From: Tolumonas lignilytica
Lineage (GTDB): Bacteria > Pseudomonadota > Gammaproteobacteria > Enterobacterales > Aeromonadaceae
DNA: 64,000 nt
Assembly (NCBI RefSeq): GCF_000527035.1
Contig: NZ_AZUK01000001.1
Coordinates: 62,001-126,000 of the forward strand
Direction of reading: 5' to 3'
Under the pieces are notes generated by a model. That model was not told the origin of the DNA. It did not search any database and saw only the letters and a list, made by a program, of their open reading frames with translations. Position 1 is the stretch's first letter, and each line of letters begins with the position of its first letter. The position numbers and the translations under genes were made by a program. Below, piece by piece: positions 20,154-47,646 of this stretch.

Positions 20154-21434
20154 TTAGGCCGCTTGCGGCAGAGATTGAGCGCTTTCTTTATCGGCATTGG
20201 GTTTAACAACGATGGTTAACACGACGGAAACAACCAGAGCACTACCCATGAAGATGTAAGATGCACCTGGGCCACCGGTTGTGCCATTCAGATAACCGAC
20301 AACCCAGGAGCCGATGAACGAACCCAATGCGCCCATGCTGTTAATCAGCGCCATAGCGCCACCGGAAACATTTTTTGGCAACATTTCAGGAATGATGGCA
20401 AAGAATGGACCATAAGGGGCATACATGGCGGCAGCAGCAATGACCAGCAACGTGTAAGACAACCAGAAATTACTTGTACCCAGCAGGAAAGAGCCGAGGA
20501 AGCAAATTGCACCGAGTAATAACATTGGCCAGACGAACAGTTTGCGGTTCTGTAGACGATCTGACAGCCAGGAGACGGTGATCATGGCAATCGTGGCTGC
20601 CAGATAAGGCACAGAAGACAACCAGCCGGTCTGAACCATACCCATATTGGATGCACCACGGATGATGGATGGCAACCACAATACGAAACCATAGACCCCA
20701 ATGCTCCAGCAGAAGTATTGTGCACACAGCAGGATCACATTCTTGGATTTGAACGCTTCAGCATAATTACGAACGGGTTTGATGTGCTTCTGTTCATTAG
20801 CCAGAATTTCGTTCAGGTCATCTTTTTCCTGCTGAGTCAACCAGTTAACCTGTTGTGGTTTGTCACGCGCAATTTTCCACCAGTAGAAGGCCCACACTAC
20901 GGCAGGAATCCCTTCCAGAATGAACATTTCGCGCCAGCCCAATGCCTGGATCAGGTAACCGGAAAGCACCGACATCCACAAGACCGTAACGGGATTCCCC
21001 AGAATCAGAAACGTATTGGCGCGAGAGCGTTCCGATTTGGTAAACCAGTTACTGATATAAATCAGCATGGCAGGCATGACCGCGGCCTCCACCATACCGA
21101 GCGTAAACCGGATGATGATCAGCATCGGGATGTTACTGACCAAGCCAGTTAACGCTGCACAGGCACCCCATAACAACACACACAGAAAAATCAGTTTACG
21201 GACACTGCGTTTTTCAGCGTAAATTGCACCAGGGATCTGGAAGAAAAAATAACCCAGGAAAAACAACGAGCCCAGCAGGGATGACATCCCCTTTGTGATG
21301 CCCAAATCCTGATTGATCCCGGCCGCTGCTGCAAAGCTGTAATTAGCCCGGTCGAGATAAGCCAGACTGTAGGTAATAAATACAATCGGCATGATATGCC
21401 ACCATCTGGATGGGGCAGGGAGTTTGGTATTCAT
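20154..21434 (-). CDS. kguT: MFS transporter for 2-ketogluconate
   Basis: A 426-residue major-facilitator protein with about 12 membrane helices, of the anion:cation symporter/phthalate-permease group (opening WWHIMPIVFITYSLAYLDRANYSF, with the RANYSF signature of sugar-acid symporters). It takes up a sugar acid with protons across the inner membrane. Sandwiched between kguK and kguD in a kguE-K-T-D order, its substrate is most likely 2-ketogluconate. Length typical, no defect. Family is certain, substrate inferred from the operon. Confidence 0.87.
   Translation of the reverse strand: MNTKLPAPSRWWHIMPIVFITYSLAYLDRANYSFAAAAGINQDLGITKGMSSLLGSLFFLGYFFFQIPGAIYAEKRSVRKLIFLCVLLWGACAALTGLVSNIPMLIIIRFTLGMVEAAVMPAMLIYISNWFTKSERSRANTFLILGNPVTVLWMSVLSGYLIQALGWREMFILEGIPAVVWAFYWWKIARDKPQQVNWLTQQEKDDLNEILANEQKHIKPVRNYAEAFKSKNVILLCAQYFCWSIGVYGFVLWLPSIIRGASNMGMVQTGWLSSVPYLAATIAMITVSWLSDRLQNRKLFVWPMLLLGAICFLGSFLLGTSNFWLSYTLLVIAAAAMYAPYGPFFAIIPEMLPKNVSGGAMALINSMGALGSFIGSWVVGYLNGTTGGPGASYIFMGSALVVSVVLTIVVKPNADKESAQSLPQAA
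21413..21420 (+). other. KOPS-like octamer pointing toward dif
   Basis: GGGCAGGG fits the FtsK-orienting consensus GGGNAGGG and reads toward the dif site at 43021. Inside the kguT gene. Confidence 0.35.
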
Positions 21435-21454
21435 ATTGGATCCTCATATCGTTG

Positions 21455-22453
21455 TTATACAGAAACCTTGCAGGTTTCATTTGTCATCGCCATCTCTGCA
21501 TCAAGAGCAGCTCTTGTCGGAAGACCTTCACTATCACCAATTACCTGAATGGCCCGGGCACCGATAAAGTTACCGCGAGCAACCGCATTTTTTATTGTTT
21601 TTCCTTCCAGTAGTGCACTGATAACCCCAACTGCAAAGCCATCACCCGCACCTACGGTATCTACTACGTTTTTCACTAACACAGCCGGAATGACTCCTTT
21701 TTCACCCGCTGCGGTTTTTAAAAAGGCACCTTCTTCACCGGTCTTAATGACGACTGTTTTTACTCCACCAGCCAGATAAAAATCGGCGACTGCTTCGGGA
21801 GTCGTAAATCCAGTCAGAATGCGACCCTCTTTGATTCCGGGCAGCACCCAGTCAGCCGCAAAGGCCAGTTTGTTCAACTGAGAGATCATTTCCTGTTCTG
21901 AACGCCATAAGACCGGACGCAAATTCGGATCAAATGAAACCGTTTTGCCGTGCGCCCGCATCCACTGCGCTGCATAGGCAGAGAGTTCATAAGATGTCGG
22001 GGACAATGCAGCCGCAACACCGCTCAGATGCACATGACGTGCACTCCCAAAATAGGCTTCGTTAAAATCAGCCAGAGAGAGGTGACTGGCCGCAGAACCT
22101 TTGCGAAAATACTCTACGATGGGATCGGTCCCATTTTCAGCTTTAGATTTGAGCTGAAAACCGGTAGGGTAGGCACGATCAATAGTAACGGCCTGTCGGT
22201 CAACATTTTCTTTATCCAGCGTGTCCAGAATAAAACGCCCAAAAGAGTCATTACCCAGTCGGCTGACCCAGCCACATTTCAGACCAAGACGGGCCAGGCC
22301 AATGGCGACATTCAGTTCTGCCCCGGCGGCACGACGGACAAACTGTTCCACACGATGCAAATTCCCCGTTTGTGTAGCAACGAACATCATCATGGCCTCA
22401 CCAAAGGTGACGACGTCCAGTTCTGCACAATTAGTCTGTACTTGAGTTGTCAT
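21455..22453 (-). CDS. kguK: 2-ketogluconate kinase (PfkB family)
   Basis: A 332-residue ribokinase/PfkB sugar kinase. The N-terminal PfkB signature is in the GAELNVAIGLARLG region, and the C-terminal ATP/catalytic motif DTVGAGDGFAVG carries the catalytic aspartate. Related enzymes are KdgK and KguK; the kguE-K-T-D order favours phosphorylation of 2-ketogluconate to 2-keto-6-phosphogluconate. It starts 6 bp after kguE. Its coding sequence contains a 16-bp near-copy of the upstream operator at 22119-22134. A KDG kinase role is the main alternative. Confidence 0.87.
   Translation of the reverse strand: MTTQVQTNCAELDVVTFGEAMMMFVATQTGNLHRVEQFVRRAAGAELNVAIGLARLGLKCGWVSRLGNDSFGRFILDTLDKENVDRQAVTIDRAYPTGFQLKSKAENGTDPIVEYFRKGSAASHLSLADFNEAYFGSARHVHLSGVAAALSPTSYELSAYAAQWMRAHGKTVSFDPNLRPVLWRSEQEMISQLNKLAFAADWVLPGIKEGRILTGFTTPEAVADFYLAGGVKTVVIKTGEEGAFLKTAAGEKGVIPAVLVKNVVDTVGAGDGFAVGVISALLEGKTIKNAVARGNFIGARAIQVIGDSEGLPTRAALDAEMAMTNETCKVSV
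22119..22134. promoter_or_regulatory. Intragenic near-copy of the PtxS-type operator
   Basis: ATGGGATCGGTCCCAT differs from the 16-bp palindrome at 23308-23323 by a single base. It lies inside kguK, 1,189 bp into the transcription unit, and may be an auxiliary operator for repression by looping. Confidence 0.5.
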
Positions 22454-22459
22454 TGTTCA

Positions 22460-23209
22460 TTACACCTCTTTCAATTTAGCCACGTAATAACGGGTCACCG
22501 CTGTCAGATCGTCACCTTGCAGTGGGAACTCAATACCGCGGGGAACATCGGTTGGCAGCATTGCCAACAAGTCTTTCCAGCTACCATCGCTGTTATCCAA
22601 TGCGACCGCGTTTATTTTGCCTTGCACAACATGGCTGGCTTTGACATGTATATAAGCCACTTGAGATGCAAGTGCTCTGGCTGCAATGAATGCGTCTTCG
22701 CCTTGCCAGTTCCAGTTCGCCATATCAAATGTCATGGATACAGGGACATGCTGTGAAAGCACCATGCCGAAAAAAGTGACCATAGGGCTGATTCGACCAC
22801 CTTCCTGAGTCTGGTCATTTTCAATAACCAATCTGACTTGAGATGACTGCAGTTTTGGAATGACGCTGGTCAGATCGGTTGCATTGGTAATAGAGCCTAA
22901 GGGTAATTTCAGGGTGCGAGCCTTCATTCGTTCGGCATTTTTCATGTGAACAGCCAGGCGGTCTAATTCCGGTTGCCCATCATCGTTCAGTAGGGGCTCA
23001 GGTACCGAGTACACACAAAACAGCCCGCGTTTCGTTATGTCACTGGCTAATTCGTCAGCATCATCCTCGGCAGATATCAGCTCATGGCGGATCTCAACAC
23101 CATCGGCGCCACTGGCTTCAATAAGTGGTAGCAACGCACGCTGACCACCCAGTCGTCTGACCATGTCCGCCCCATAGGCTGATGTGACAACAACAATTTT
23201 CTTGCTCAT
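22460..23209 (-). CDS. kguE: KguE-type sugar-phosphate isomerase/epimerase-like TIM barrel
   Basis: A 249-residue protein of the xylose-isomerase-like TIM-barrel superfamily (GADGVEIRHELIS, RLVIENDQTQEGGRISP, SMTFDMANWNWQGED), with the metal-binding Glu, Asp and His positions typical of sugar isomerases/epimerases. In Pseudomonas the first gene of the 2-ketogluconate operon, kguE, encodes such a protein with an unproven step. Here it is also the first gene, 98 bp downstream of the palindromic operator, and its start has AAGGA 8 bp upstream. Role within 2-ketogluconate use is supported by context, the exact reaction is not known. Confidence 0.85.
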   Translation of the reverse strand: MSKKIVVVTSAYGADMVRRLGGQRALLPLIEASGADGVEIRHELISAEDDADELASDITKRGLFCVYSVPEPLLNDDGQPELDRLAVHMKNAERMKARTLKLPLGSITNATDLTSVIPKLQSSQVRLVIENDQTQEGGRISPMVTFFGMVLSQHVPVSMTFDMANWNWQGEDAFIAARALASQVAYIHVKASHVVQGKINAVALDNSDGSWKDLLAMLPTDVPRGIEFPLQGDDLTAVTRYYVAKLKEV

Positions 23210-23307
23210 ATAAATCCTTATTAATCAGATATATGAATCAAATATTTTCTGTAGCTACCGCTATCAGGCGATATTTGAATGAATAAATTCGATTTGGTGA
23301 ATTTATT

Positions 23308-23323
23308 ATGGGACCGGTCCCAT
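23308..23323. promoter_or_regulatory. PtxS-type palindromic operator upstream of kguE
   Basis: ATGGGACCGGTCCCAT is a perfect 16-bp palindrome with the CCGG centre seen in the Pseudomonas PtxS site. It lies about 100 bp before kguE, where a repressor of the operon should bind. Confidence 0.75.
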
Positions 23324-23501
23324 TAAGGATTCCATGATGAGAAGACAAAAACATGAGGCAGGTCACTATTCCCTGGAAAAATGCCGTATTTTTGTGATGC
23401 AGATATTAGTTACGGGTAACAAATTTTCTGGTTATTTACCCAAATTTGCTACCAGAAAATCGACCAGCAACCTGACCTTAGGGGATATAGGAATCAAAAA
23501 T

Positions 23502-23734: not shown

Positions 23735-23857
23735 GGTTTATGACATGGAGGAGTGGCGTTGTCGCTCCAAATTCATAACACATAGAAAGAAAACCCAGAT
23801 GAGTTACAAGTCCTAACATATTGCAAAAATCAACACAATATTATCCTAATATCTATT

Positions 23858-24215: not shown

Positions 24216-24461
24216 ATGATGTCGCTAACGATTTTAGGGTATTGTCCAAACAGAATCATATCTAAAGCAAAACATCTTATTCGATCATTTCAAGATGGGC
24301 ACACGAGGTACAAAAAACTTTCCGGGTTACGGCAATATTCATCAATCAAGTTAAACAACAATTATCGATTGCTTTTAGCGCCTTCTGGGTCTGTCTTCAT
24401 CGGTTCTCATGAGGAATACGAGCGTAAAATAAAGCAATTGAAGAAGACAGGTGGCCAATAG
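24216..24461 (+). CDS. Small ParE/RelE-like protein
   Basis: An 81-residue basic protein. The C-terminal half (YKKLSGLRQYSSIKLNNNYR, then SHEEYERKI) has the pattern of short ParE/RelE-superfamily toxins: a compact helical hairpin, then a beta sheet with YR and a final SHExY segment. AAGGAG lies 6 bp before the ATG. Its stop overlaps the GTG start of the viperin gene by one base, so the two are coupled. No antitoxin is seen beside it. Whether it is a true ribonuclease/gyrase toxin or a repurposed fold cannot be told; it has no obvious catalytic residues. Family assignment is tentative. Confidence 0.6.
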   Translation: MMSLTILGYCPNRIISKAKHLIRSFQDGHTRYKKLSGLRQYSSIKLNNNYRLLLAPSGSVFIGSHEEYERKIKQLKKTGGQ

Positions 24462-25315
24462 TGGAAGCTGTTTATAATTGGCATGTTACGGAGCGATGTC
24501 AGTACTCATGCAAATATTGTTTTGCAAAATGGGGGAACACCAAGGAGATTTGGCAAAATGTGAAGCTGACTTCTGCGCTATTAGACCAGATCCGCATTCA
24601 TGGTCGCGAACCCTTTGGTGAGGGATACAAAACAGCCCCAATCAGATTAAATTTTGCAGGTGGTGAACCGCTATTGCTCAAGCAGCGTCTCATTGATATT
24701 GCCAAGGAGTCAAAATCTCTGGGTTTGAAGACATCATTAATCACTAATGGAGAAAGGCTTGGTCAATCACTTGAACTAGTTTCGAAGCTAGACATGATTG
24801 GTCTTTCTATTGATTCTTTTGATGAAGCAACTAATCGTGCAATCGGGCGGATAAGATCCTCTGGCAAAGCTTTGTCATTCCAGGATGTTTACGATTTAGT
24901 GACAAAAATTCGTACTATCAACCCAGAAATATTGCTCAAGTTCAATGTGGTTGTAAATAAATACAACTATCGTGAGAATCTCATACCAAAGCTTTTGAGT
25001 TTGTCCCCACAAAAAATAAAAGTACTTCAAGAATTGTCAGCTGGCGGGAACGTATCTTCAACAAATGATGAGATGTTTAGTCATTTTATATCAAACAATC
25101 AATGTGATTGCTCAAATGTTTATATTGAAGACAGAAATTCAATGATCCAATCATATCTGATGATCAATCCTTCGGGTCGATTCTATCAAAACGGGAACCA
25201 AAACGATTATTTTTATAGTGCCCCAATTCATGAAGTCGGTTTATTACGCGCAATGAAATCTATCTCATTTAATCAACAACAATTTTCAAATAGATACAAC
25301 GGAGCTAAAAAATGA
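24461..25315 (+). CDS. Prokaryotic viperin (radical SAM, antiviral nucleotide synthase)
   Basis: A 284-residue radical-SAM enzyme of the viperin family. The 4Fe-4S motif is C13-x3-C17-x2-C20 in ERCQYSCKYCFAKW, the SAM-binding GGEP is at residues 67-70, followed by SLITNGE. The viperin-specific segments KFNVVVNKYNYRE (160-172) and SYLMINPSGRFYQN (231-244) are clear, and the C-terminus has the DYFYSAPIHEVG pattern of bacterial viperins. Viperins convert nucleotide triphosphates to 3'-deoxy-3',4'-didehydro forms that stop viral RNA polymerase. It is sandwiched by overlaps between a ParE-like gene and a TPR gene. GTG start. Confidence 0.9.
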   Translation: MEAVYNWHVTERCQYSCKYCFAKWGNTKEIWQNVKLTSALLDQIRIHGREPFGEGYKTAPIRLNFAGGEPLLLKQRLIDIAKESKSLGLKTSLITNGERLGQSLELVSKLDMIGLSIDSFDEATNRAIGRIRSSGKALSFQDVYDLVTKIRTINPEILLKFNVVVNKYNYRENLIPKLLSLSPQKIKVLQELSAGGNVSSTNDEMFSHFISNNQCDCSNVYIEDRNSMIQSYLMINPSGRFYQNGNQNDYFYSAPIHEVGLLRAMKSISFNQQQFSNRYNGAKK

Positions 25316-30980: not shown

Positions 30981-32492
30981 TTACAGTAGATGCTCAATAA
31001 TTTGATCTACACGCTCTTGGTTAAACTCTTCAAAATCAACCATTTCACCCATAGCGACAAGTTGTTCTCTTGTCGGGTAACGTAATGTTCTAAGATCAGT
31101 GGCATTGACTTGAGTATGACCATTCATTTGGCGGAAATACTTATCTACTAAGGTGCTGTTCAAGAACACCCATAGACCTTTGGCAAGGCTATCATCTAAC
31201 GGTTCACCCATTGCGTGAAAGTAGTTCGTTTTGTTCTCAAAACCCACTACTTCTACATCAGCAATATCAGACGTGTAAATTGAAGCAACAATTCTACGCT
31301 TTTCTTCTTTGGCGGTAAGTCTGCGAGTTAAGACGTAAGTTCCGTTTTGAACCATAAGATTAGCGGTGCTTTCATTGTTCAATAGTGCGTTTGGTTTTTT
31401 CGCATTTTCAACTGGCCATTTAATAGCACATTTTTGTAAATGTTGAGGAAAAATCAAAGGCACTGAACCTTCAACATAGTTTGTGCTTAAATTTTCCCTA
31501 GTGCGAAAATCAACGACTTTACCTGTGCTTGCCTGAATACCAAGATCTTCGAGTGAACACGGTAAACCACCGGCTCTAGTCGCTACATTCTGTTCTTCTT
31601 CATCGGTGATGATATGAATAAATCGATCTGGATTGCTCTCACTCACGACCCTGTCAAAAGGCACTTCATAGACAAATGGGTTTGGATCTTCTGCACAAGA
31701 GCTAGAAGTTACAATAACCGTATCTCTTTGCGGTTCACCTTTCGTTAAGTGGTATACAACGTTTTCTTGCAGCACTTTGTCAGTCTTAAACGCTGAATTA
31801 CGGCTATTAAAAACGTGAATTTTGTTTATAGAACAAGAATCTAACAGTAGTCTACGAAAATCGTTGAAGTATGGACCGTTACAAAATGAACGTGGAGTGA
31901 TTGCGACAAGTTCACCACCCTCTTCTAAAAGCTTTATAGCCAAACCTACAAACGCTGAGTAAAGATTACCCGTTTCAAAACTAACCTTTCTAAGAGTATC
32001 CCTTTCTGTGCCTTTAGCCGCGATTTTTAAGTAAGGAGGATTAAGGATGGCTTTGTTATATGTAGGTCTGTATGTATCACTTAGAAGTAATTCTACTGAG
32101 TGTTGAATAAAATCTTCTTCAATTACGGTTTGTTCCCACTGCACACCACTAACATCACATGTATTTGAACAATGCTTTAATGTGTCAGATAGGTAATATC
32201 TCATTACGCTCGATAATTCAAAGCAAGTTGAATCAATGCTTTTTGCATCGTTTTTAACTCGCTCAACAAAAGCAGCCGTTAAAGATCCTACGCCTGCTCC
32301 TGCATCTAGTAGGCGCTGTTCACCCTCGACATTTTCAAACATATCAGCAAGAAGCTTAGATACAGCAGAAGATGACATAAACTGGCCTAACTTCCCTCTA
32401 AGCTTTTCATCGAGTTTTCCATTTGCCTCTACTCGGTTCACATCTGCAATGTAATTTAAGTTAATGGGTAAATTTTGAGCCAACTCAGCCAT
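30981..32492 (-). CDS. Adenine-N6 DNA methyltransferase, PstI/BsuBI type
   Basis: A 503-residue gamma-class adenine methyltransferase. The opening NLNYIADVNRVEANGKLD...LGQF is characteristic of M.PstI-type enzymes, with the SAM-binding motif LLDAGAGVGSL near residue 60 and the catalytic NPPY near residue 150 (NKAILNPPYLK). The C-terminal half is the target-recognition domain. It is divergent from a BsuBI/PstI-family endonuclease gene 129 bp away, as in the classical PstI system, and would protect host DNA by methylating adenine in the target, probably CTGCAG (inference from family). Confidence 0.92.
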   Translation of the reverse strand: MAELAQNLPINLNYIADVNRVEANGKLDEKLRGKLGQFMSSSAVSKLLADMFENVEGEQRLLDAGAGVGSLTAAFVERVKNDAKSIDSTCFELSSVMRYYLSDTLKHCSNTCDVSGVQWEQTVIEEDFIQHSVELLLSDTYRPTYNKAILNPPYLKIAAKGTERDTLRKVSFETGNLYSAFVGLAIKLLEEGGELVAITPRSFCNGPYFNDFRRLLLDSCSINKIHVFNSRNSAFKTDKVLQENVVYHLTKGEPQRDTVIVTSSSCAEDPNPFVYEVPFDRVVSESNPDRFIHIITDEEEQNVATRAGGLPCSLEDLGIQASTGKVVDFRTRENLSTNYVEGSVPLIFPQHLQKCAIKWPVENAKKPNALLNNESTANLMVQNGTYVLTRRLTAKEEKRRIVASIYTSDIADVEVVGFENKTNYFHAMGEPLDDSLAKGLWVFLNSTLVDKYFRQMNGHTQVNATDLRTLRYPTREQLVAMGEMVDFEEFNQERVDQIIEHLL

Positions 32493-32621: not shown

Positions 32622-33596
32622 ATGAGAGAAAAAAAACTAGAGCAAGCAAAGAAAATTCTCAAAGCTTTGGGATTACCTAAGCAACAATACAACGATAGAT
32701 CGGCATGGGTATTTTTAGCACTTGCTAATATTAAACCAAATGATGATTGGATTGTTGCAACTGCGCCACTACTACCAACCGTTGATATTATGGATTTTAT
32801 CCGCTCTGAGTATGGTAAGGACTACAAACCAAACTCTCGTGAAACGATTAGAAGACAAACTTTGCACCAATTTGATCAAGCCCAAATCGTTGATAGAAAC
32901 CGTGATAACCCTTCTAGAGCTACAAATAGCAAGGACAATAACTACTCTTTGAATCAACCAATTATCGAGATTCTACACGCTTACCCTAATGGCAATTGGG
33001 AAACATTGGTTGAGAAATTTCTTAATGATGTACCTACTCTTCAAGCAATGTATCAACGAGCTATCAATAAAGAAAAGATTCCTGTTCTCTTACCTGATGG
33101 GAATGAAATAAAACTTTCCCCAGGTGCTCACAACCAACTTCACGCTGATATTGTTCACGAATTCTGCCCTCGTTTCGTTGGTGCGGGTGGTAAAGTTCTT
33201 TATATCGGTGATACGGCAAGTAGCCGTGATGAAGGTGGTAAACATATGGTTCTAGAAACTGAGTACCTAAAATCGCTGAATGTTCCACCCATGTCGCACG
33301 ACAAACTACCTGACGTTGTTGTTTATGATGAAAAACGCCAATGGCTGTTTTTGATTGAAGCTGTAACAAGCCACGGACCAGTTAGCCCTAAGCGATGGCT
33401 GGAACTTGAAGAAGCTTTGAAAAGTTGTTCTGTTGGTCGTGTTTACGTAACCGCTTTTCCTCATAGAGCTGAATTTAGAAAAAATGCTGCTGATATTGCT
33501 TGGGAAACTGAAGTTTGGATTGCTGACAATCCAGACCATATGATTCACTTCAACGGAGATCGATTCCTTGGTCCACATGACAATACAAAGAGTTAA
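32622..33596 (+). CDS. Type II restriction endonuclease, BsuBI/PstI family
   Basis: A 324-residue endonuclease, the same size as R.PstI (about 326). Features of the family are an N-terminal helical part ([23 protein letters not shown]) and the C-terminal catalytic region [39 protein letters not shown], where D and E residues form a PD-(D/E)XK-like centre. By family it should cut CTGCAG and leave 3' overhangs. It is paired with the divergent methylase and followed 3 bp later by another putative nuclease gene. AT-rich like the island. Confidence 0.92.
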
Positions 33597-34181: not shown

Positions 34182-34428
34182 GACCTATTGGACACAAAGT
34201 GTACCAGTCAACTAATACCGGATAATAAATTAAGCTGATTTTCTGCTTTCGCTGACGTAACACCTTGAATTTACAGAATCGAAACCTTTACTGGGGCGGG
34301 GAGTTATCTCGGCTCATAAAGTTAGAGTGAGGCACGAGGATTTTCGAATTAGAAACAGATAGTAATTGATCCGCAAATTATAATACCAAACAGAGTTGTG
34401 ATTTCATCTAATTAAGGGTGTGAAACAC

Positions 34429-35106
34429 ATGAAAAAAGTTACTGATGCTAGTTTTATTGAAATAACTCACATAGCAGCAATTGCTGGACGAGATGCTGTG
34501 GCAAAATCAAAAGCCAGCAAACGAAATAAAACTATCGGCTATTACAATGAAAATGCAGAGACCTTTTATAATTCGACGGTAAACGTTGATATGGCATCTT
34601 TATATCAAGAATTTCTACCTTTAGTGAAACCGGCAGGACATATTCTGGATGCAGGCTGCGGCTCTGGACGCGATTCAAAGGCATTCATTGCATATGGTTT
34701 TAAAGTCACTGCGATTGATGCAAGTGCTGAGCTCGCAGATTATGCAACACAATTAATCAAGCAGCCTGTTATTGTTACTGACTTCCAATCATTCAAATCT
34801 GACGATATGTTCGATGGGATATGGGCATGTGCCTCATTGTTGCATGTACCGATTTTTGACTTAAAAAATACTTTTTTCCATCTTGGAACAAGCTTAAAAA
34901 CACAGGGGGTTTTTTACTGCTCTTTCAAGTATGGTTCTGATTCGATCGTAAGAAATGGACGTTTTTTCACTGATTTAAACGAAACATATTTAGACGAGTT
35001 GTTACTCGATACTGAACTTCAAATTGAGAAGTATTGGATCACATCAGATTTACGGCCTGGTCGTTCCGATGAAAAATGGCTGAATGCAATTCTAAGGAAA
35101 ATTTAA
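34429..35106 (+). CDS. Class I SAM-dependent methyltransferase
   Basis: A 225-residue Rossmann-fold methyltransferase. Motif I is HILDAGCGSGRDSKAF near residue 70, the acidic end of strand 2 is VTAIDASAELA, and motif IV-like MFDGIWACASLLHVP follows. It has an unusual about 40-residue leader rich in Ala and Lys. Start ATG 34429 with AAGGG 10 bp upstream; the GTG at 34420 would be too close to that site. An HNH nuclease gene begins one base after its stop. The substrate is unknown; it lacks the NPPY or PC motifs of DNA methylases, so it may act on a small molecule or protein. Confidence 0.8.
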   Translation: MKKVTDASFIEITHIAAIAGRDAVAKSKASKRNKTIGYYNENAETFYNSTVNVDMASLYQEFLPLVKPAGHILDAGCGSGRDSKAFIAYGFKVTAIDASAELADYATQLIKQPVIVTDFQSFKSDDMFDGIWACASLLHVPIFDLKNTFFHLGTSLKTQGVFYCSFKYGSDSIVRNGRFFTDLNETYLDELLLDTELQIEKYWITSDLRPGRSDEKWLNAILRKI

Positions 35107-35107
35107 T

Positions 35108-36109
35108 ATGTCGCAGCAATTTACCAATGAAGATTACCTAAAAGGAATCATACTGTTTGGTCTGAATGCTGCGACTTACAAAATGGGACTAGCTAAGGTA
35201 TTACTTGCCGCAGCAAAAGAACAAAAAAACCAACTTTTTTGGGATGAATTATCTTCAGAATTTTTTTTGCTATACAAAGATCGCATAGCTACGAATCAGA
35301 TGCCTCAGCAAGGTATTGCACATCGACAGACAGCAATGGAACGAATTGTTCAACAACATAGTTCCGGTAAGTTATCTGCGTCTGATGCAATCGAACAAGT
35401 TGGCGTAAAAGGCTTCATTGATGTGATACCACGTTTTCAAACCATCGGCACCAATAAAGAAATTGTTAAAGAATACTTTTACGAATTTGATTATGGAAAG
35501 AAGCTAACACTGAAGGATTCGCTGCTGAACTTCACGAAAGGACAATTGGCCGAATTAGAGGCCGAAATTGATGCTAGATGGGGGTTGTTAGAGGGTGCTT
35601 TTGCTATCAATCAAAAACAGTTTCAATTAGCAAATGATATCCGAGAGATTTATCTGTATTCAGGTTATGAAAGAAAGCCTCTGACCAACAACATCCCATT
35701 CCTTAGCGGTTATCAGGGGAATGTTTGTTTCTATTGTGGCGAGCCACTTGAGGAGGATATTCATGTTGACCATGTGTTGCCGAGACAAGTGCTACATCAT
35801 GATGAGATCTGGAATCTGGTTCTCAGTCATTCAGACTGCAATTTATTAAAGTCTGACCGTCTTGTTGGTAAACATTTCATAGAAAAACTGATCGCACGCA
35901 ATGAAAACATTATGGGCAGCAATCATCCCTGGAAAGCAAAAATTGCCGCTGCACTTGGTTCGACACTAAAGCAAAGATCTACCAGCCTATTGAAGCATTA
36001 TCAGAATGTCTCGACTGTTATAGGAACGAATTATTGGGGTGGAAGTGCTTCTTATAACCCAGCGACAGATCCGTTTTATAAGAAACTCATTACAGCATTA
36101 AATAATTGA
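35108..36109 (+). CDS. HNH endonuclease
   Basis: A 333-residue protein. Residues 1-200 are helical with no family I recognize. The HNH nuclease lies at about 205-260: zinc knuckle CFYCGEPL, then HVDHVLPRQ with the catalytic DH, NLVLSHSDCN with the second half of the knuckle, and KHFIEKL. The start follows the methyltransferase stop by one base, so they form a two-gene unit. Such a nuclease plus methyltransferase pair in a defence island could act on foreign DNA, but the methylase does not look like a DNA methylase, so this may not be ordinary restriction-modification. Confidence 0.85.
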   Translation: MSQQFTNEDYLKGIILFGLNAATYKMGLAKVLLAAAKEQKNQLFWDELSSEFFLLYKDRIATNQMPQQGIAHRQTAMERIVQQHSSGKLSASDAIEQVGVKGFIDVIPRFQTIGTNKEIVKEYFYEFDYGKKLTLKDSLLNFTKGQLAELEAEIDARWGLLEGAFAINQKQFQLANDIREIYLYSGYERKPLTNNIPFLSGYQGNVCFYCGEPLEEDIHVDHVLPRQVLHHDEIWNLVLSHSDCNLLKSDRLVGKHFIEKLIARNENIMGSNHPWKAKIAAALGSTLKQRSTSLLKHYQNVSTVIGTNYWGGSASYNPATDPFYKKLITALNN

Positions 36110-37091: not shown

Positions 37092-37550
37092 TTAGTTTTG
37101 CTCTTTATCTTCGCGTTGTCTGAGCTCTCTGATTAGAAAAGGGCTTAAGAATCGTTCAATATTCCTATGAAGCCCTTCACTCTTGATTGCTTGAATAACA
37201 TCAATGAGCACTGCTGTGTTTTGGTTAACCATATTTTTAGCTTCTTCTACTTGAACCCTCAGTGCTGCATTGGTTTTAATTAATTCAGCTCGGCTTTTAG
37301 TCGCTCCAGAACGAGCACTTTCCCCGAATGTTCCTCCAACTTCATCAAGTTGCATTTTTTTATAATGTTCAATAATGTTCTTTCGACTTGTTAGTGTGCT
37401 GATAGACCCTGAAACAATCCCTTTTTCTTTTAGCCTGATGTGCAGGTTTTTATTGGTAATAGGCGAGACGTTATAGCCCTCTCGTACCATCGCGCGTAAT
37501 TCAGCCTCTATAGCTTCGTCAAGCTCTTCACCTGATAGTTTGATCTGCAT
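37092..37550 (-). CDS. Recombination helper protein (Srap-like)
   Basis: A 152-residue protein, last of four overlapping recombinase genes. The first half resembles a small winged helix (ISTLTSRKNIIEHYKKM region) and the second a coiled coil (RAELIKTNAALRVQVEEAKNMV). In size and position it corresponds to the SE-associated recombination auxiliary protein, and to the third gene, tnpC, of Tn554-like modules. Its start shares one base with the 804-residue gene. No enzymatic motif. Name inferred from gene order. Confidence 0.65.
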   Translation of the reverse strand: MQIKLSGEELDEAIEAELRAMVREGYNVSPITNKNLHIRLKEKGIVSGSISTLTSRKNIIEHYKKMQLDEVGGTFGESARSGATKSRAELIKTNAALRVQVEEAKNMVNQNTAVLIDVIQAIKSEGLHRNIERFLSPFLIRELRQREDKEQN

Positions 37551-39964
37551 TACATAATCTCCAATTTCTTATGCTCAATGGCAAAAATCGTAGCTAGTGT
37601 TTTGGGTTTCTTTTGTACATCAAATCCAATCAAACTGACTTTTTTCTTCGCAGATTCAATCATGCCGGACTGTTGCTTAAACCACTGTAAATTTTCTTTT
37701 CGATAATGAAAATCAACTATAATTTCATCGTATTCATTTTGTGTTAATTCACCTATATGCAAGAGCCGTTTAATTTCTTGTATGTTTTGCTGGAGCATCG
37801 ATATTCTTTGCTCTAATTTTTGAGTATCGTCTGCTCTTCCAATTATGGTGAAATATGGGCATAACGTACCATCCTGGCATTTCATCGAGTAAGGGCATGA
37901 CCACGCTTGTAATTTCCTCATGCAACTCCCAAAATCCAGCGGGTGTAGATCTGCATGTCTTTCCAATAATGCATTCCTTTCTGATTCAGACCCTTCCAGA
38001 GCACATGCTTCACTGAGACCCGCCATTAAATCAAATGAGCAGCTTCCAAATGCGTCCTCAATAAAGGATATTTTATCTTCCTTAGTCGTAAAAGAATGCG
38101 TATTTTGTGTTATTGAATTGCGAAGATTGAGATTGGGATTAATGTATATTTCGGCAGTTTCCTTGATGATATTGAGTGCATTCGATGCAGCAATACCTTT
38201 GGGTGCTGGTGCTCGTTCATCAGTAAATAAATCCAACTGATTGCAAGCTGATACAACTTCACTAGCTAATGCTCTTTGTTCTATCGCAAGATGTTGATAT
38301 GCATCATTTTGAGTAATGTCTACACGCCCCATCATAACAGCCTGCAGGTGATCGGTTATTCCTGCGATGGCAAGAAATGTATTAATAGTATGACGCGGCA
38401 TATGTGTGGTTAATACTGGAAATTCGCCATTCTCATCAACTAAGTTGTATTTTTTGAATAACGAAACACCATGTCCGCTCTTTGATCCAACGAAAGTCAG
38501 CATATTTACCATTGATACTGGTACTGGTAATGGTTTTATCACGGATGCGTGAGCTAAAGAAAATGAACCTTCTGGGGCAATGAAAAGCAAGTCTTCAATT
38601 CTGTATGTAATTTGATTTCCTGTACGAGAATCTACAAATCTATATATAAAATCCTGGTTAAGTCCCTTGGTTACAAATATTTTTTCTTTCAAAAATTTTT
38701 CAATGCTATCTCTGGAATAATAAAAGTTTTTTTGCCGTCCATTGACTCGCTCTACGCGTGAGGGTTCAACACCAAGTTGTGAAAGTGATTTTTTGGCATA
38801 ATCTCTTTGTGAAGCAGTCCCTCTCGCTTTAGCAGTTTTTGCGAATGACTCAGAAATATAAAGTACAATTTCGTTTAAAGAGATTTCAGGTTTACCAAGA
38901 AGTTCAAGCGGTAACAGCGAAATGAAATTATTCTCTCGACATCGTGCAATATGAGCTCTTACTGACTTAGTGATCTTTATAGTGTCTTCAAATATAGATT
39001 CGACTAGATCTATTGCGAGTGGCTCAACCCAATGTGTACGATGACCTGCTTTTTTCTCACCTATGTATACAATGCCAAGATAATAATGTTTCAATCCCTT
39101 TTTTTTAAGGATAGCCAACGCGTCAACATCTTCAACTTCTAACTTTTTCAGACAATCTATTTTTAGACGCTCTAATTCTCCGAATCGGAATCCAGTTACC
39201 ATTAGCAGTAACAACATGTTTAAAAGTAATTTTTCTCCATCAGTTTTCACCATGCTGCGCACAGCCACAATATTTAAAAATGTTTGTATAGTAATAATTT
39301 TTTTACTTTCATCTTCATCGGTTTGTTCTGCAAACTCAGAACCATGATATGCTTTTATTTTGGCTTGTTTTGCTGCGCTGGTAGATTTTGAGGAAGGGCA
39401 TCTTTGGGTTATTTTAAATACGATTGGATTGAATGTAATTCCTATCCTAGTTATATATTCACAGATTCGCTTTACAGCTGTTTGACTATCAGCAATATTG
39501 TTGATATTTGACATTACTGAACAATGAGCTCGCATGGCCTGCGATATGATTTCATCGCTAATTGTATAAACATTTGGAGATCGATCTCCATTAATTAGCA
39601 TGCGGATATAAATCCGCTTTAATAATAAATTGTCACGATGCAAGGCGGATATTGAGATCTTGTGATTATTTAATTTAATTAGAAAGATAATGAAAGACTT
39701 CATGAAATTTCGATATTCAATATTAATTTCATGACTTGTATCTATTGGCGTGTCACCATTAAGATAAATCCCTTTTTTTAACTGACTTATTTTCTTGAAT
39801 TCCAAATGACCTGAAACACGACCAGAAAACACTCCCTTGTGAGAGGTTGCGACCCCCCAGCTATCATCTTCCCAGTTAAAATCTACATCTGATGCAATTT
39901 TGGCTTTAAAATAAGCTTTATGCTCTGCAACGAAGAGTTTTAAATTTTCGATCCTATCTCTCAT
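37550..39964 (-). CDS. Large tyrosine recombinase, IntB-like
   Basis: An 804-residue recombinase. Catalytic residues of the tyrosine recombinase family are present: R260 (TGFRFGELERL), H521-x-x-R524 (HMPRHT), then R547 in place of the usual H/W (MMGRVDIT) and the nucleophile Y556 (NDAYQHLA). An extra cysteine-rich segment in the last quarter (ACALEGSE, SCMRKLQAWSCPYSMKCQDG) looks like a zinc site. It overlaps its neighbours by one base on each side (stop/start), so it is in an operon. Size and order match IntB of SE elements or TnpB of Tn554-like elements. Confidence 0.85.
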   Translation of the reverse strand: MRDRIENLKLFVAEHKAYFKAKIASDVDFNWEDDSWGVATSHKGVFSGRVSGHLEFKKISQLKKGIYLNGDTPIDTSHEINIEYRNFMKSFIIFLIKLNNHKISISALHRDNLLLKRIYIRMLINGDRSPNVYTISDEIISQAMRAHCSVMSNINNIADSQTAVKRICEYITRIGITFNPIVFKITQRCPSSKSTSAAKQAKIKAYHGSEFAEQTDEDESKKIITIQTFLNIVAVRSMVKTDGEKLLLNMLLLLMVTGFRFGELERLKIDCLKKLEVEDVDALAILKKKGLKHYYLGIVYIGEKKAGHRTHWVEPLAIDLVESIFEDTIKITKSVRAHIARCRENNFISLLPLELLGKPEISLNEIVLYISESFAKTAKARGTASQRDYAKKSLSQLGVEPSRVERVNGRQKNFYYSRDSIEKFLKEKIFVTKGLNQDFIYRFVDSRTGNQITYRIEDLLFIAPEGSFSLAHASVIKPLPVPVSMVNMLTFVGSKSGHGVSLFKKYNLVDENGEFPVLTTHMPRHTINTFLAIAGITDHLQAVMMGRVDITQNDAYQHLAIEQRALASEVVSACNQLDLFTDERAPAPKGIAASNALNIIKETAEIYINPNLNLRNSITQNTHSFTTKEDKISFIEDAFGSCSFDLMAGLSEACALEGSESERNALLERHADLHPLDFGSCMRKLQAWSCPYSMKCQDGTLCPYFTIIGRADDTQKLEQRISMLQQNIQEIKRLLHIGELTQNEYDEIIVDFHYRKENLQWFKQQSGMIESAKKKVSLIGFDVQKKPKTLATIFAIEHKKLEIM

Positions 39965-41493
39965 TATTTAAAACCTCCTTCGATGCGATTAATAACCATC
40001 TGCACTTCACCTTTTAGATTGGCAAGTATTTCTATAGCTGGATTTCTAACATTGCCTGACATCTCACTTACTTCTAAAGTATCAATCAGCTCCTTATTTA
40101 CAGCACGAAGAACGGAGTAGTGTTTATTTAGATCAGTAAAGGGCCTAAAGTAGAAGCAACCATAACAGGAACGCACCTTAGCTAGATGACATTGTTCATC
40201 AGGTCTTTCACACCCACCGATTTTAATGTGAAGTTCTCCACCTAATGAGCCTGAAACTGTTCTTTTCGACCAAGCAGTATTTTCAACTGAATAACCAGTG
40301 AGTAATAAATTTACCATATTTTTCCAAACTGGATTATCTCCAAGAGCTTTGCTTTTGAGCATTGCCAATTCTGGAGTGGCAGAAATATAGTAGGTAGCAG
40401 CGATTAATGAACTATGCCCAAGCATATAAGCAATTTCATCGGCGCTAGCGCCAGCAAGCGCTAATGAATGACCAACATTATGGCGAAAATCATAAGTGGT
40501 TAGTTTTGGTAAAATTATCTCATCTTTAGCAACTTTCTCTTGCACTTCTTTCGGCTGAATTATAAGTAGCACTCTTTGTAATATATTATTTAAAAAATTA
40601 ACAAGGTTTTCATCTACCGGTATAAATCTATCTTCCGGTTTTAATTTCCCCCGTTTAATATATTCGTCAACAAGCAATCCAAGTTCAGCTGGCAATGCAA
40701 CTTTAACTTTATTGTTGGTGATCTTGGTTTGTTTTGCGTATGGCATATTTAGACAGTAACGATAAAGCCCTGACTTATCGTTACTTGTATCTTGTTTAAA
40801 ATCTCCAGCTGTTATCTTGGCGAACTGAATTGATCGCATTCCTGTGTAGTATGACAAACCAAATAGCGTAAAGTCTGTAATTTCATTACTGGACAATATC
40901 ATTCTATTTTTGCTGGCAGAAACAATAGAACGAGCAATTAAACATTTAAGAGAGGAGGGCAATGCATTTTCTAAATCTTGATACTTAATGAACGGATTAT
41001 CTGAATTCGGAGTTGGAATGAGCAAAAAATCATCCAGATTTTCTACAGAAAACCTAGGGAAATTAAGCCTACATAATACCCTTAGCACGCCTTTAACAGC
41101 AAAGTACATTTCAGGCTTTCCTAACAACTCGGTCGAACAGAGTGCATCCTTGAACCCTTTATAGGAAAAATCATTAAAACTGAATGCATGTTTTATCAGA
41201 TTAAAGTTTGTCCCTCTGAGAGCTCGGCCACTATTAATGAGTGAAACGATGCAAAACTTGATTAGTTTTTTCATCGAAAGATCAAAAATATCAGTGAAGT
41301 TAAAAACTTCTTTTTCTGCGCCAATAATAAATCGCCACTTATCTTCAGCTGTGTCAGAGATCACTGAATCGAATCTTGAATCAGTTTGGATTATAACATG
41401 CTTAGGAAGTTTTAATTCCTCAATAAATACGACTTGTTCATGAGATAATATAGACTCATTAATAACTGATGAATAACTCTCTGTAGACATCAT
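39964..41493 (-). CDS. Tyrosine recombinase fold protein, Tfp-like
   Basis: A 509-residue member of the tyrosine recombinase fold. R220 (YTGMRSIQF), R337, H360 (LGHSSL) and Y368/Y369 (AATYYIS) are in place, but the HxxR histidine is replaced by Y334 (YDFRHN), so activity may be weak or lost. A cysteine cluster (GGCERPDEQCHLAKVRSCYGC) near residue 430 could bind zinc. It is the second gene of the module and would be the non-catalytic 'tfp' component in SE elements. It starts 6 bp after the intA stop and overlaps intB by one base. Confidence 0.8.
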   Translation of the reverse strand: MMSTESYSSVINESILSHEQVVFIEELKLPKHVIIQTDSRFDSVISDTAEDKWRFIIGAEKEVFNFTDIFDLSMKKLIKFCIVSLINSGRALRGTNFNLIKHAFSFNDFSYKGFKDALCSTELLGKPEMYFAVKGVLRVLCRLNFPRFSVENLDDFLLIPTPNSDNPFIKYQDLENALPSSLKCLIARSIVSASKNRMILSSNEITDFTLFGLSYYTGMRSIQFAKITAGDFKQDTSNDKSGLYRYCLNMPYAKQTKITNNKVKVALPAELGLLVDEYIKRGKLKPEDRFIPVDENLVNFLNNILQRVLLIIQPKEVQEKVAKDEIILPKLTTYDFRHNVGHSLALAGASADEIAYMLGHSSLIAATYYISATPELAMLKSKALGDNPVWKNMVNLLLTGYSVENTAWSKRTVSGSLGGELHIKIGGCERPDEQCHLAKVRSCYGCFYFRPFTDLNKHYSVLRAVNKELIDTLEVSEMSGNVRNPAIEILANLKGEVQMVINRIEGGFK

Positions 41494-41499
41494 GTGCTC

Positions 41500-42852
41500 T
41501 TAAATATCAGGGAATTCGTTACTATAGAGTATTTCAAATGTGCCGTGTTTAAACATACTCATGTTGACTTCATTAGCATGCTCGGCGATAAATCGCTTGG
41601 CATAATTGTTTGGCATCAAGGAGCCATCAGCCCATCCACCTAATTGGCGTAAACTATCCTTTGCTGACTCCATGATGCCTTTCGCATTTGCAGCTCCTGC
41701 CTTAACAAATTGTTCTTCAAAGTGGTGATACAAATTTCTTAGTTGTATATAAGCCCATGTGTGTCGAAGCATATGGGGATGAACATTATCCAAATATTCT
41801 GCCTTGACGGGGGAAAAGTGCTCTGGAAATTTTTCTTTCATCGCATCACTAGCATCACTAATGATTTTGTAAGCTGCCTTGTAGGATAGGGGATCACAAT
41901 CACCAATTGATGAAGTGATTAAAAAATTGTGCGACGATCGCAGTTCCACTTGTGACATAAACATTTTTATAATTTTGTAGTCCTGCGATGTGATCTTTAG
42001 CTCCCTAATACTTTGTTGAGTTTTTATTTGAGGTTTTTGCTTTCGTGGATCTACGCCATCATTTAGATTAGCAACATACATATAGAATGCATTACCAGAC
42101 ATATTGGATTTGAACGATGTTCCCCGGAGCAGAAGAGCCTCACCGATCCTTAGACCATACTGTGTCAGAAGTTTAATAAGAATGAGGTTTCTGAAACTGA
42201 CATAGACAGATAGCGCTAGCTTACCATCGTCATCTTTTTCAATCTGCTTTGGCAATGAAAACAGCGATACAAAATCTCTGAGTTGCTCATGAGTCAGACT
42301 TTTATAAAAGTTTGTGTTGTGTGATTTATTAGAGCTGTACTTAGAGTATTTTTTTGCTTCGACGTTCAAAAAGGAATGTAACGCTCTTTTATAAGCATCA
42401 ATATCCTTAATACTCTCAGTTATAAAATGTGGCGTAATATATGAATCGATGAGCCAAGAGATGAAACGGCAGACTGCTTGATATCTTGATGTTTTTGTTT
42501 GTATCTTTTGTATTGAATCTTTTTGGGGGTTGAAGGGAAGAGCAGTAACATTATCCACATAGTTCCTTGAATGACCTAAATACAGCCAGAAACAATCCAA
42601 TTCTGAGATCATTTTTGATATCAGCGAGCCAGAAAACTCGCTTTTATACATTGAATAGTCCAGCGTAAAACCGAATTTGGCTAGCCAATACTCATGGAAA
42701 TACATAATGTTGGTCAACGTGCTGATCTGGTAGTTAACTGACTTCAGGTGAAGTTGCTCAATGCAAAGCTTCAATGACAAGAATGTTGGTTGCATGGCTT
42801 CGCTGTCAAAAAGGCAAGCTCTCTCATCATCAATTTTAATCACCTTATACAT
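41500..42852 (-). CDS. Tyrosine recombinase, IntA-like
   Basis: A 450-residue site-specific recombinase with the full set of catalytic residues: R235 (YGLRIGEALLL), H360-x-x-R363 with H364 (HPHMLRHTW), W407 (LGGWADG) and the nucleophile Y417 (NNYAKRF). It is the first of four overlapping or adjacent genes, all read leftwards. Its start is 168 bp from the dif-like site and near ACATGTA words at 42848, so it is at the very end of the element, as expected for an integrase next to its attachment site. Confidence 0.9.
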   Translation of the reverse strand: MYKVIKIDDERACLFDSEAMQPTFLSLKLCIEQLHLKSVNYQISTLTNIMYFHEYWLAKFGFTLDYSMYKSEFSGSLISKMISELDCFWLYLGHSRNYVDNVTALPFNPQKDSIQKIQTKTSRYQAVCRFISWLIDSYITPHFITESIKDIDAYKRALHSFLNVEAKKYSKYSSNKSHNTNFYKSLTHEQLRDFVSLFSLPKQIEKDDDGKLALSVYVSFRNLILIKLLTQYGLRIGEALLLRGTSFKSNMSGNAFYMYVANLNDGVDPRKQKPQIKTQQSIRELKITSQDYKIIKMFMSQVELRSSHNFLITSSIGDCDPLSYKAAYKIISDASDAMKEKFPEHFSPVKAEYLDNVHPHMLRHTWAYIQLRNLYHHFEEQFVKAGAANAKGIMESAKDSLRQLGGWADGSLMPNNYAKRFIAEHANEVNMSMFKHGTFEILYSNEFPDI

Positions 42853-42889
42853 GTACGTATTCCATGGTAGATATTATCGGTGATGTACA
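42848..42889. repeat. TACATGTAC/ATGTACA words at the right end
   Basis: TACATGTAC at 42848-42856 also occurs exactly at 24001-24009 near the left end; ATGTACA follows at 42883-42889. These may be recombinase arm-binding sites. Confidence 0.3.
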
Positions 42890-42991
42890 AATTAAAGTGT
42901 AGACATTATGAGAGTCAACCAAAACAAAGCAAATGATGACTACTCGATCAAACTATCTGATCTTATAGGATTTATTGATGATATGACCAAC

Positions 42992-43003
42992 AGACATGTA
43001 GTA
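42992..43003 (+). repeat. Candidate right attachment repeat
   Basis: AGACATGTAGTA, in the same orientation as AGATATGTAGTA at 23858-23869, with one mismatch. It ends 17 bp before dif. Confidence 0.35.
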
Positions 43004-43020
43004 GATCATATATAGATTGG

Positions 43021-43048
43021 ATTTAACATAATATACATTATGCGAAAT
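43021..43048 (-). other. dif-like XerCD recombination site
   Basis: On the plus strand: ATTTAACATAA (XerD arm, 43021-43031), spacer TATACA, TTATGCGAAAT (XerC arm, 43038-43048). The first 24 bases equal the reverse complement of the E. coli dif; only the outer four bases of the XerC arm differ. This is either the chromosome terminus site or an Xer-type integration scar. Confidence 0.8.
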
Positions 43049-46347: not shown

Positions 46348-47646
46348 TCAATTTATCCCTTTCAGCCGATTAATTTGTTTGGCAGCAGCGGTTTCATGTC
46401 GTTCAATTTTCGTGGTATGTAAATACTGTGATGTGGTATCAATACTGTCATGTCCCGCATCAGCCTGCACATGCGATAACGGTCTTCCATTTAAATTAAT
46501 ATCGTGTGTAATCCCCGTATGGCGGATGCTATGAGGAGTCATTTGCCGCATCTCCTGTGCGTCCTGTTCAAACCCATCTTCCTGTGCCAAATCGGCGGCA
46601 GTTTGGATCAAGAAGTTGATATCATCGCGTAATTGCCGAACCCCCAGGTTTGCATTGCGTAAACCAGCATCTCGCCCTCTCCCTGCGGCTTTATGTCGCA
46701 AAAATAGCGGCGTACTTTCATTCGGTGTCGGTAAAGCTGATAACCCTAGATATTCTCTATAACGTTTCAATGCGACAAGCAACTGATTGGATACTGCGAC
46801 TGTTCTGCGTTTTCCGCCTTTACTGACCGGAATAAAAAATCCCCAGACACCGCTGTGACTGTCTCGTCGAAATTGCCCCATTACAGGTGAAAAACCAGGC
46901 CGGGCAGCCACTTCAGAAATGCGTAAATAACAGCTATACATCAAACTCACCAAAAATAGCGTTCTTTCGTGCAAATCTGGCTGTTTACTGGCCAATGCTT
47001 CTGCTGCAGAGATGACATAAGACCACTGTAACTCACTGAATGATTTTATGTTTTCCTCATCATCGAGCATATTACCCCGTAATGGTGATACAGAAAATCG
47101 GCTTTGTTTCATCCACATCATGGCCGGATTTCTTTCTGTGTATTCCTCATTAATCAAGTAACCATAATATGCTGATAAAATAGCCATTTTTGTTTTTAAT
47201 GCTTTATCACTCAGACGGTAGGCTAATGGCTGGTTATTGTCTTTTTTCCCTAGAAATGGCCGCCATAAAGGATTAGGTACCCGCTCCCCCCACTCTTTCA
47301 CAGTGACAAACTGCGCCACATTTCGATAAGCAATCAGTTCCTTGGGTGGATCCATGCAATAGTTAACATACGCGTTCATCATGCGGCGATTCACTTCCGC
47401 CGGAGAGATCCCTTCCACGTCAAAACACCAATGCAAATAAGTCGTGAGCTCACTTCGATATGTTTTGTAGTTATTTTCATTGAAACGATGCTCACTCAAC
47501 CAATCAACGGCATGTTCATAGACCAGCGCAGCATCATATACATGATGGATCGTGATATCCGCGACATGCTGATTGACGGTCGGATTACCTTCATCCAAAT
47601 ATTGTGGTGAATCAAAAAGCGGAATAACAGGAGGGTTATCTTGCAT
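46348..47646 (-). CDS. Tyrosine-type site-specific recombinase
   Basis: A 432-residue recombinase with all catalytic residues: R242 (CYLRISEVA), H372-x-x-R375-H376 (TPHSIRHTG), H399 (AGHDSIDT) and Y408 (SQYLHT). A long N-terminal core-binding domain precedes them. It is not part of the four-gene module and is unlike XerC/XerD in length. There is no cargo around it that would mark a prophage. The perfect 12-6-12 palindrome at 43287 could be its target, inferred only from site shape and nearness. Related stand-alone genes occur in Vibrio- and Shewanella-like genomes. Confidence 0.9.
   Translation of the reverse strand: MQDNPPVIPLFDSPQYLDEGNPTVNQHVADITIHHVYDAALVYEHAVDWLSEHRFNENNYKTYRSELTTYLHWCFDVEGISPAEVNRRMMNAYVNYCMDPPKELIAYRNVAQFVTVKEWGERVPNPLWRPFLGKKDNNQPLAYRLSDKALKTKMAILSAYYGYLINEEYTERNPAMMWMKQSRFSVSPLRGNMLDDEENIKSFSELQWSYVISAAEALASKQPDLHERTLFLVSLMYSCYLRISEVAARPGFSPVMGQFRRDSHSGVWGFFIPVSKGGKRRTVAVSNQLLVALKRYREYLGLSALPTPNESTPLFLRHKAAGRGRDAGLRNANLGVRQLRDDINFLIQTAADLAQEDGFEQDAQEMRQMTPHSIRHTGITHDINLNGRPLSHVQADAGHDSIDTTSQYLHTTKIERHETAAAKQINRLKGIN

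Follow-up and report, generated by a model that had tools for sequence, protein, structure and literature searches.

The window, that is, the whole 64-kb stretch of DNA analysed here, contains a 28-base dif sequence and, directly beside it, the recombinase operon of a genomic island with a set of probable cargo genes behind. The features are listed below; the boundaries of the arms and centre of dif are those that we take from the layout of E. coli dif.

43021..43048, minus strand: dif, 28 bases, identified by its similarity to E. coli dif, its single copy and the switch in skew and octamers
43048-43038, minus strand: XerC arm of dif, ATTTCGCATAA, divided by analogy with E. coli dif
43037-43032, minus strand: centre of dif, TGTATA, divided by analogy with E. 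coli dif
43031-43021, minus strand: XerD arm of dif, TTATGTTAAAT, divided by analogy with E. coli dif
43015..43020, minus strand: CCAATC, the six bases from dif to the left end of the element, putative element overlap by analogy with E. coli and A. bestiarum
42853..43014, minus strand: left end of the island, non-coding, resembling the left ends in G040 (locus L066) and G010
41500..42852, minus strand: ginA, tyrosine recombinase, 450 aa (Pfam Phage_integrase, 36.6 bits)
39964..41493, minus strand: ginB, tyrosine recombinase, 509 aa (domain match; 34% to the E. coli G4/9 protein, E 2e-84)
37550..39964, minus strand: ginC, 804 aa, weak recombinase match (27% to the E. coli G4/9 protein, E 3e-95)
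37092..37550, minus strand: ginD, 152 aa (41% to the E. coli G4/9 protein, E 4e-25)
35108..36109, plus strand: HNH endonuclease protein, probable cargo (Pfam)
34420..35106, plus strand: methyltransferase-domain protein, probable cargo (Pfam)
32622..33596, plus strand: BsuBI/PstI-type restriction endonuclease, probable cargo (Pfam, 208.5 and 169.5 bits; PADLOC)
30981..32492, minus strand: type II DNA methyltransferase, probable cargo (Pfam; PADLOC)
24461..25315, plus strand: prokaryotic viperin (pVip), possibly of the same element, further off than the restriction pair (NCBIfam NF038283, 299.3 bits against a cut-off of 180; PADLOC)
20200..23381, plus strand: core chromosomal block outside the island, 80-84% to seven other genomes of the genus

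The minus strand of 43021-43048 reads ATTTCGCATAATGTATATTATGTTAAAT. It is identical to E. coli dif at 25 of its 28 bases, 24 of them contiguous, as the sequence-only reading of the window had stated, and 100 shuffles of the sequence gave no dif match. In the genome (3,632,236 bases in nine contigs) it is the sole dif-like site at up to three mismatches to a 25-mer; a second complete dif, which that reading had named as the observation that would speak against it, was not found in the nine contigs at this threshold. The reading had also pointed to GGGNAGGG octamers converging on dif. Their positions (21413 on the plus strand, 44206 and 53089 on the minus strand) are exact, but 2.94 are expected in the window by chance and three are present, so that the octamers in the window prove nothing. 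The convergence is seen instead on the scale of contig C1, on which dif lies at 105,021: among 100 of the 167 places listed, the octamer is on the plus strand in 5/5 cases to the left of dif and on the minus strand in 30/32 from 106,206 to 793,551, all of these pointing inward. The octamer read backward is equally frequent (167 vs 167), so that the strand change alone is informative, and a G-rich octamer of this kind tracks GC skew anyway. Nine octamers far off, at 1.07-1.77 Mb, are on the plus strand where GC skew predicts the minus strand (again among 100 of 167 places listed).

Of 20 stretches of 20 kb sampled along contig C1, the 11 between 130 kb and 1.72 Mb all have negative GC skew; in the remaining nine (1-20 kb and eight from 1.85 Mb on) it is positive. 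The sign therefore switches between 20 and 130 kb, an interval that includes dif, and between 1.72 and 1.85 Mb, an interval that includes the dnaA match at 1.781 Mb. The 24-base dif core is present in 7 of 11 genomes of the genus, own genome counted; the four without a dif match comprise two that are less than 75% complete and two that are 95-99% complete. In the sister genus (Aeromonas-like) one dif was found in 37/37 genomes. The single copy, the skew switch, the octamer strand change and the presence across the genus support the original proposal that 43021-43048 is the probable chromosome dimer-resolution site. The outer bases of the XerC arm, ATTT, had been put down to either a species feature or a scar. 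All six full XerC arms of the genus have ATTT (the seventh dif is cut by a contig end), which rules out a scar; in the sister genus the same bases vary (ACTG, ACCG, ATTG, ACTT, AATG or ATTT in 30 loci read). Of the two readings the first is therefore right, in that the ATTT arm is a feature of the genus.

GInts, as the main text of Bardaji et al. (2017, PMC5385486) describes them, have three recombinase genes and a small gene at one end, with the cargo behind. The parts of the island seen in the window are the dif-side junction and the operon. On the XerD side of dif follow CCAATC, about 160 non-coding bases and then ginABCD, transcribed away from dif; the island had been placed within 20 bp of dif, which is close and yet understated, as comparison with relatives puts its start at the first base past dif. 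The genes ginA-ginD are in one operon, with ginA beside one end (attL) and reading inward, as in a GInt. The recombinase domains of GinA and GinB exceed the Pfam cut-off and GinC has a weak match, and in GinA the residues R235, H360, R363, W407 and Y417 are invariant across 10 homologues. GinA is related to its E. coli G4/9 counterpart by the tree, and GinB, GinC and GinD by pairwise similarity. Shewanella nanhaiensis has four genes of 449/523/805/147 aa at its own dif. Among solved structures the GinA profile gave a single match, at E 0.44, which is of no use. We identify the feature in the window as a predicted chromosomal dif with a GInt adjoining its XerD edge.

In E. coli and Aeromonas bestiarum the junctions can be read to the base. 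The empty site of E. coli K-12 is dif/CATGTC/TGAGTGATGCG, the six-mer being followed by TGAGTG. E. coli G4/9 has dif/ATGGTG/GGTTTGCTC (starting GGTTTG) on the ginA side and, about 42.6 kb from dif, the far junction CCTAATAGTTAAAT/CATGTC/TGAGTGATGCG (in short form TAATAGTTAAAT/CATGTC/TGAGTG), beyond which the native flank continues at 99.8% over 1,500 bases. Another sequence resembling a right end is found 79 bp inward of this far end (L103, 21216-21301), and the two are perhaps left by earlier or successive insertions. E. coli SCU-313 has dif/ATGGTG and AATAGTTAAAT/GGAATT/TGAGTG, with no gin genes in the stretch examined; its far six-mer, GGAATT, compares with CATGTC in K-12, the comparison holding no empty close relative. 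In A. bestiarum the left junction is dif/ATACTG and the far one, 62.8 kb away, is ACTTGTTAAAC/ATGATA/TCTTG (in short form TTGTTAAAC/ATGATA/TCTTG), while its relatives have dif/ATGATA/TCTTG (G032) and dif/GTTGTA/TCTTG (G031). The deviating six-mers of G031 and SCU-313 indicate that the six bases vary among hosts. In both species the comparison shows an unaltered dif, with the element's six bases beside it and the host's six at the far end, and the far end imitates the outer portion of the XerD arm.

The six bases after dif are also variable in the sister genus, where native flank follows in 22 of 30 loci read (37 genomes) with 20 different six-mers. At 14 loci of equal spacing, the entropy being calculated with eight rows with one extra base and eight without native flank omitted, it amounts to 1.5-2.0 bits from +1 to +4, falls to 0-0.37 from +5 to +7 and rises to as much as 1.3 again at +20 to +29. 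This variability is suggestive only of a footprint of repeated visits, and drift could explain it.

A contig scan with three GinA sequences as queries gave 25 loci. In four of these (Shewanella nanhaiensis, Aeromonas bestiarum, Enterobacter cloacae and Pseudocitrobacter vendiensis) a dif core with at most two mismatches of 24 lies 200-209 bp before the GinA match in equal orientation. In Photobacterium marinum the core lies 2.6 kb before the GinA match and the left end touches dif, and in Providencia heimbachae and Vibrio halioticoli the contigs start within the XerD arm, in the latter at its last six bases. In a Citrobacter locus (L080) the left end adjoins ATAAGTTAAAT and there is no Xer site, and no arm was found within 800 bp upstream in Vibrio salilacus (L076). 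At 16/16 more distant GinA loci, all of them weaker matches and three of them with less than 1 kb of upstream sequence, no dif was found (best 7-10 mismatches). In a GinA tree of 31 rows, of which L079 and L102 are identical, drawn with the root on the long branch L097, all 12 rows labelled as bearing the arm fall in one 15-row group with support of 100/99; its E. coli row, L102, was found with a dif-containing query. The other three rows of the group are L080, L076 and G070. The last of these, labelled as without an arm, has its left end at dif with ginA 17 kb on, which brings the arm-adjacent rows to 13/15; the remaining two have a partial arm in one case and none found in the other. The printed left ends start directly past the XerD arm, and in the branch of A. 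bestiarum and E. coli a TTCATGAG-like motif stands at a constant distance from it. In a class-wide sample a member of this GinA clade (E 1e-30) was found in 1/369 genomes, the own genome.

The same left ends also occur away from dif. Ten such loci were printed, nine on plasmids and one (L112) in an E. coli chromosome record. Full TTATGTTAAAT stands inside a Xer-type site in 9/10, seven of the ten having come from arm-containing queries, and in 3/3 finds made with the protein alone (Vibrio harveyi, Klebsiella and E. coli plasmids). The XerC arm and centre vary in these sites and TTATGTTAAAT stays, so that the constant part is the XerD arm. The site GGTGCGCATAA-caaaga-TTATGTTAAAT is found empty on a Klebsiella plasmid. 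The tenth locus (L107) is at ATAAGTTAAAT without a Xer site; together with L080 at the same sequence and the armless L076, this indicates that the XerD arm is not absolutely required.

A 94-bp query of dif plus left end matched 641 of 5,426 E. coli genomes, and in 594 of them the match extended over at least 80% of the query; a query running from dif into ginC matched 692, of which 87 had at least 80% covered. Since only 87 cover the longer query, most of the 594 are probably remnants. Among 72,556 plasmid records the plasmid version of the junction query matched 1,139, and its coverage reached at least 80% in 92; in the weakest plasmid rows listed the Xer site alone was covered. Where a GInt left end holds the XerD side, genes for ISNCY-family transposases (ISKpn21, ISLad2 and unnamed) are found on the XerC side (L100, L105, L106, L108, L109, L112, L114 and L115; L146 is an empty site). 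Two unrelated kinds of element flanking Xer sites are in line with the account in the main text of PMC10132070. In E. coli EH09-18-41 (L100) filamentous-phage genes, two copies of ISKpn21 and a GInt are stacked in the interval from hipA to the far side of dif.

Within the island, two proteins without a family match (33600-34181 and 36124-36615, the NCBIfam search covering the former) adjoin the restriction pair and the gin operon. A transposase with HTH_38 and rve domains at 29827-30795 is presumably IS30-like. Far ends of the attR type are present in E. coli G4/9, SCU-313 and A. bestiarum; in the window, scanned for native flank, GTTAAA-type arms and left-end repeats, no attR with an imperfect direct repeat and AT-rich 3' end was found. 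The native flank was sought with 3.9 kb beside dif of G002 and 2.2 kb of G001 (the nearest 259 bp omitted), which had no match in the own genome or inside the 64-kb window. A candidate far end near 23,800, marked by a GC step and an AT-rich stretch with TATGTTA, was too weak and is not claimed. The bases next to dif in G001, G002, G008 and G009 are TAACTA or TAATTA, after which comes a common flank. The nearest clearly chromosomal block in the window, which ends at 23,381, is situated about 136-395 kb from dif in four relatives (G001, G002, G009 and G010), which indicates that the terminus side has been rearranged.

Left-end remnants adjoining dif without a ginA match, in L066 (G040) and G010, are traces of lost islands; in G010 (contig C1, 456848-456930) the remnant is short and the flank of G008 then resumes at 91%. 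On the XerC side of dif the window has a further tyrosine-recombinase gene (46348-47646), whose best NCBIfam matches are XerC/XerD, far below the cut-off. Related genes are found near dif in G001, G002, G009 and G014 (also L010, 7-1173), and in G070 there is one within 60 kb.

We consider it highly probable that a GInt integrated at the XerD edge, with GinABCD using the XerD arm as half of the attachment site and dif remaining intact. The attachment site of the GInt would consist of the XerD arm TTATGTTAAAT, a six-base overlap and a second arm. A Gin protein would itself bind the XerD arm as a half-site, and the strands would be cut six bases apart, in parallel to the inference of Bardaji et al. 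for other GInts. Recombination would take place just outside dif, so that the element's six-mer comes to adjoin dif and that of the host moves to the island's far end, and because it lies outside, all 28 bases of dif would survive. One essential half-site may in this way serve two systems, XerCD inward and the GInt outward, and dimer resolution would be left working beside the element. The E. coli and A. bestiarum junctions, the intact dif, the left-end register across the clade and the plasmid XerD-arm sites are what comparison shows directly.

Adjacency to dif could in principle arise in other ways. IMEX-type elements, such as CTX phage and others, use dif, have no recombinase of their own and depend on host XerCD, which act inside dif. 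Entry of this type, in which XerC/XerD of the host recombined dif with a dif-like site on the island and the gin genes came in as passengers, would agree with that habit and with the filamentous-phage genes that lie between hipA and the dif-GInt junction in EH09-18-41. However, the island has its own recombinase operon at a fixed place, the dif sequence is complete with the change starting outside it, and the far junctions of G4/9, SCU-313 and A. bestiarum are a XerD-like arm without an adjoining XerC arm. None of the marks of an IMEX (lack of an own recombinase, crossover inside dif and dif-like sites at both ends) was found. The last two observations on the junctions disfavour XerCD-driven entry, which we regard as improbable; what the island would have in common with an IMEX is the use of dif, and what would set it apart is that it carries its own recombinases and that the crossover is outside dif. 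We give still less credence, indeed hardly any, to coincidence or to selection for a harmless place, in which the terminus collects islands and dif-adjacency involves no recognition. The terminus of the genus is much rearranged, as the displaced core block illustrates, but a junction identical to the base across several orders, in a single orientation, and the use of plasmid Xer sites speak against this explanation, and the register already contradicts it. From these alignments we conclude that the XerD arm is the predicted target of the island and not something circumstantially close to it.

A third alternative is that recognition extends to no more than a short core, GTTAAAT, and that XerD arms are used for being well kept and accessible and not for being bound as a whole. 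It would account for L080 and L107, at ATAAGTTAAAT without a Xer site, and for the right-end arms, which share mainly GTTAAA with dif. GTTAAAT is, however, common in any genome, yet nearly all left ends inspected are at complete XerD arms in Xer-type sites, and we think recognition of the short core alone unlikely, if well ahead of the two explanations above. Beyond recognition of the XerD arm at this locus, we tentatively suggest, as a possibility short of an even chance, that one GinA clade in several gammaproteobacterial orders addresses the XerD half-site of both dif and plasmid Xer sites. As the 11-bp arm is shared, every dimer-resolving replicon would be a landing site, islands could pass between terminus and plasmids, and their integration or excision may be in competition with XerD and FtsK at division or have its timing set by them.

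For islands with defence genes this amounts to a target rule, from which landing sites in new genomes can be predicted and which suggests how such islands move between chromosome and plasmid. It also makes testable the sharing of the XerD half-site by a parasite without harm to dimer resolution.

GInts are already known, also in E. coli, and appear as the Tn6571/Tn6488 subfamilies in the text of PMC8865565. In the main text of PMC5385486 their junctions are site-specific with short imperfect repeats and 6-nt staggered cuts are inferred; the targets given are an ABC transporter gene, ssb and a ribonucleotide reductase gene, and the word dif does not occur there. The island in the window is like these GInts in its operon and in the cargo behind it, and the related islands of E. 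coli and A. bestiarum also have site-specific junctions with short imperfect repeats; the difference is in the target, here the XerD arm, both in dif and in the Xer sites of plasmids. Hochhauser et al. (2023, PMC10121019) place GInts with defence systems at fixed places in E. coli, for example at hotspot #39; neither dif nor Xer occurs in the main text, and hotspot #39 may be the dif-side place, unnamed there. We found no open-access paper that places GInts at dif in its article text, as distinct from supplementary tables, and, going by these main texts, what appears to be new here is the XerD arm as target. We file the island as a GInt and not as an SE (strand-biased circularizing integrative element; IntA-Tfp-IntB-Srap) by gene order and size. 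SEs, in the main text of PMC10214605, likewise have a quartet with tyrosine recombinases and a 6-bp spacer marking the ends, and SE proteins are separated there from GInt proteins; the host six-mer is at the recombinase-proximal end in SEs and at the distal end in the GInts described here. Insertion sequences of the IS1202 family (ISAjo2 and ISKpn21), in the main text of PMC10132070, likewise belong to the non-Xer elements with dif and plasmid dif as their targets; the site stays intact and the orientation is constant. They insert 5 bp from the XerC side with target duplication, whereas the island described here has tyrosine recombinases and lies directly at the XerD side.
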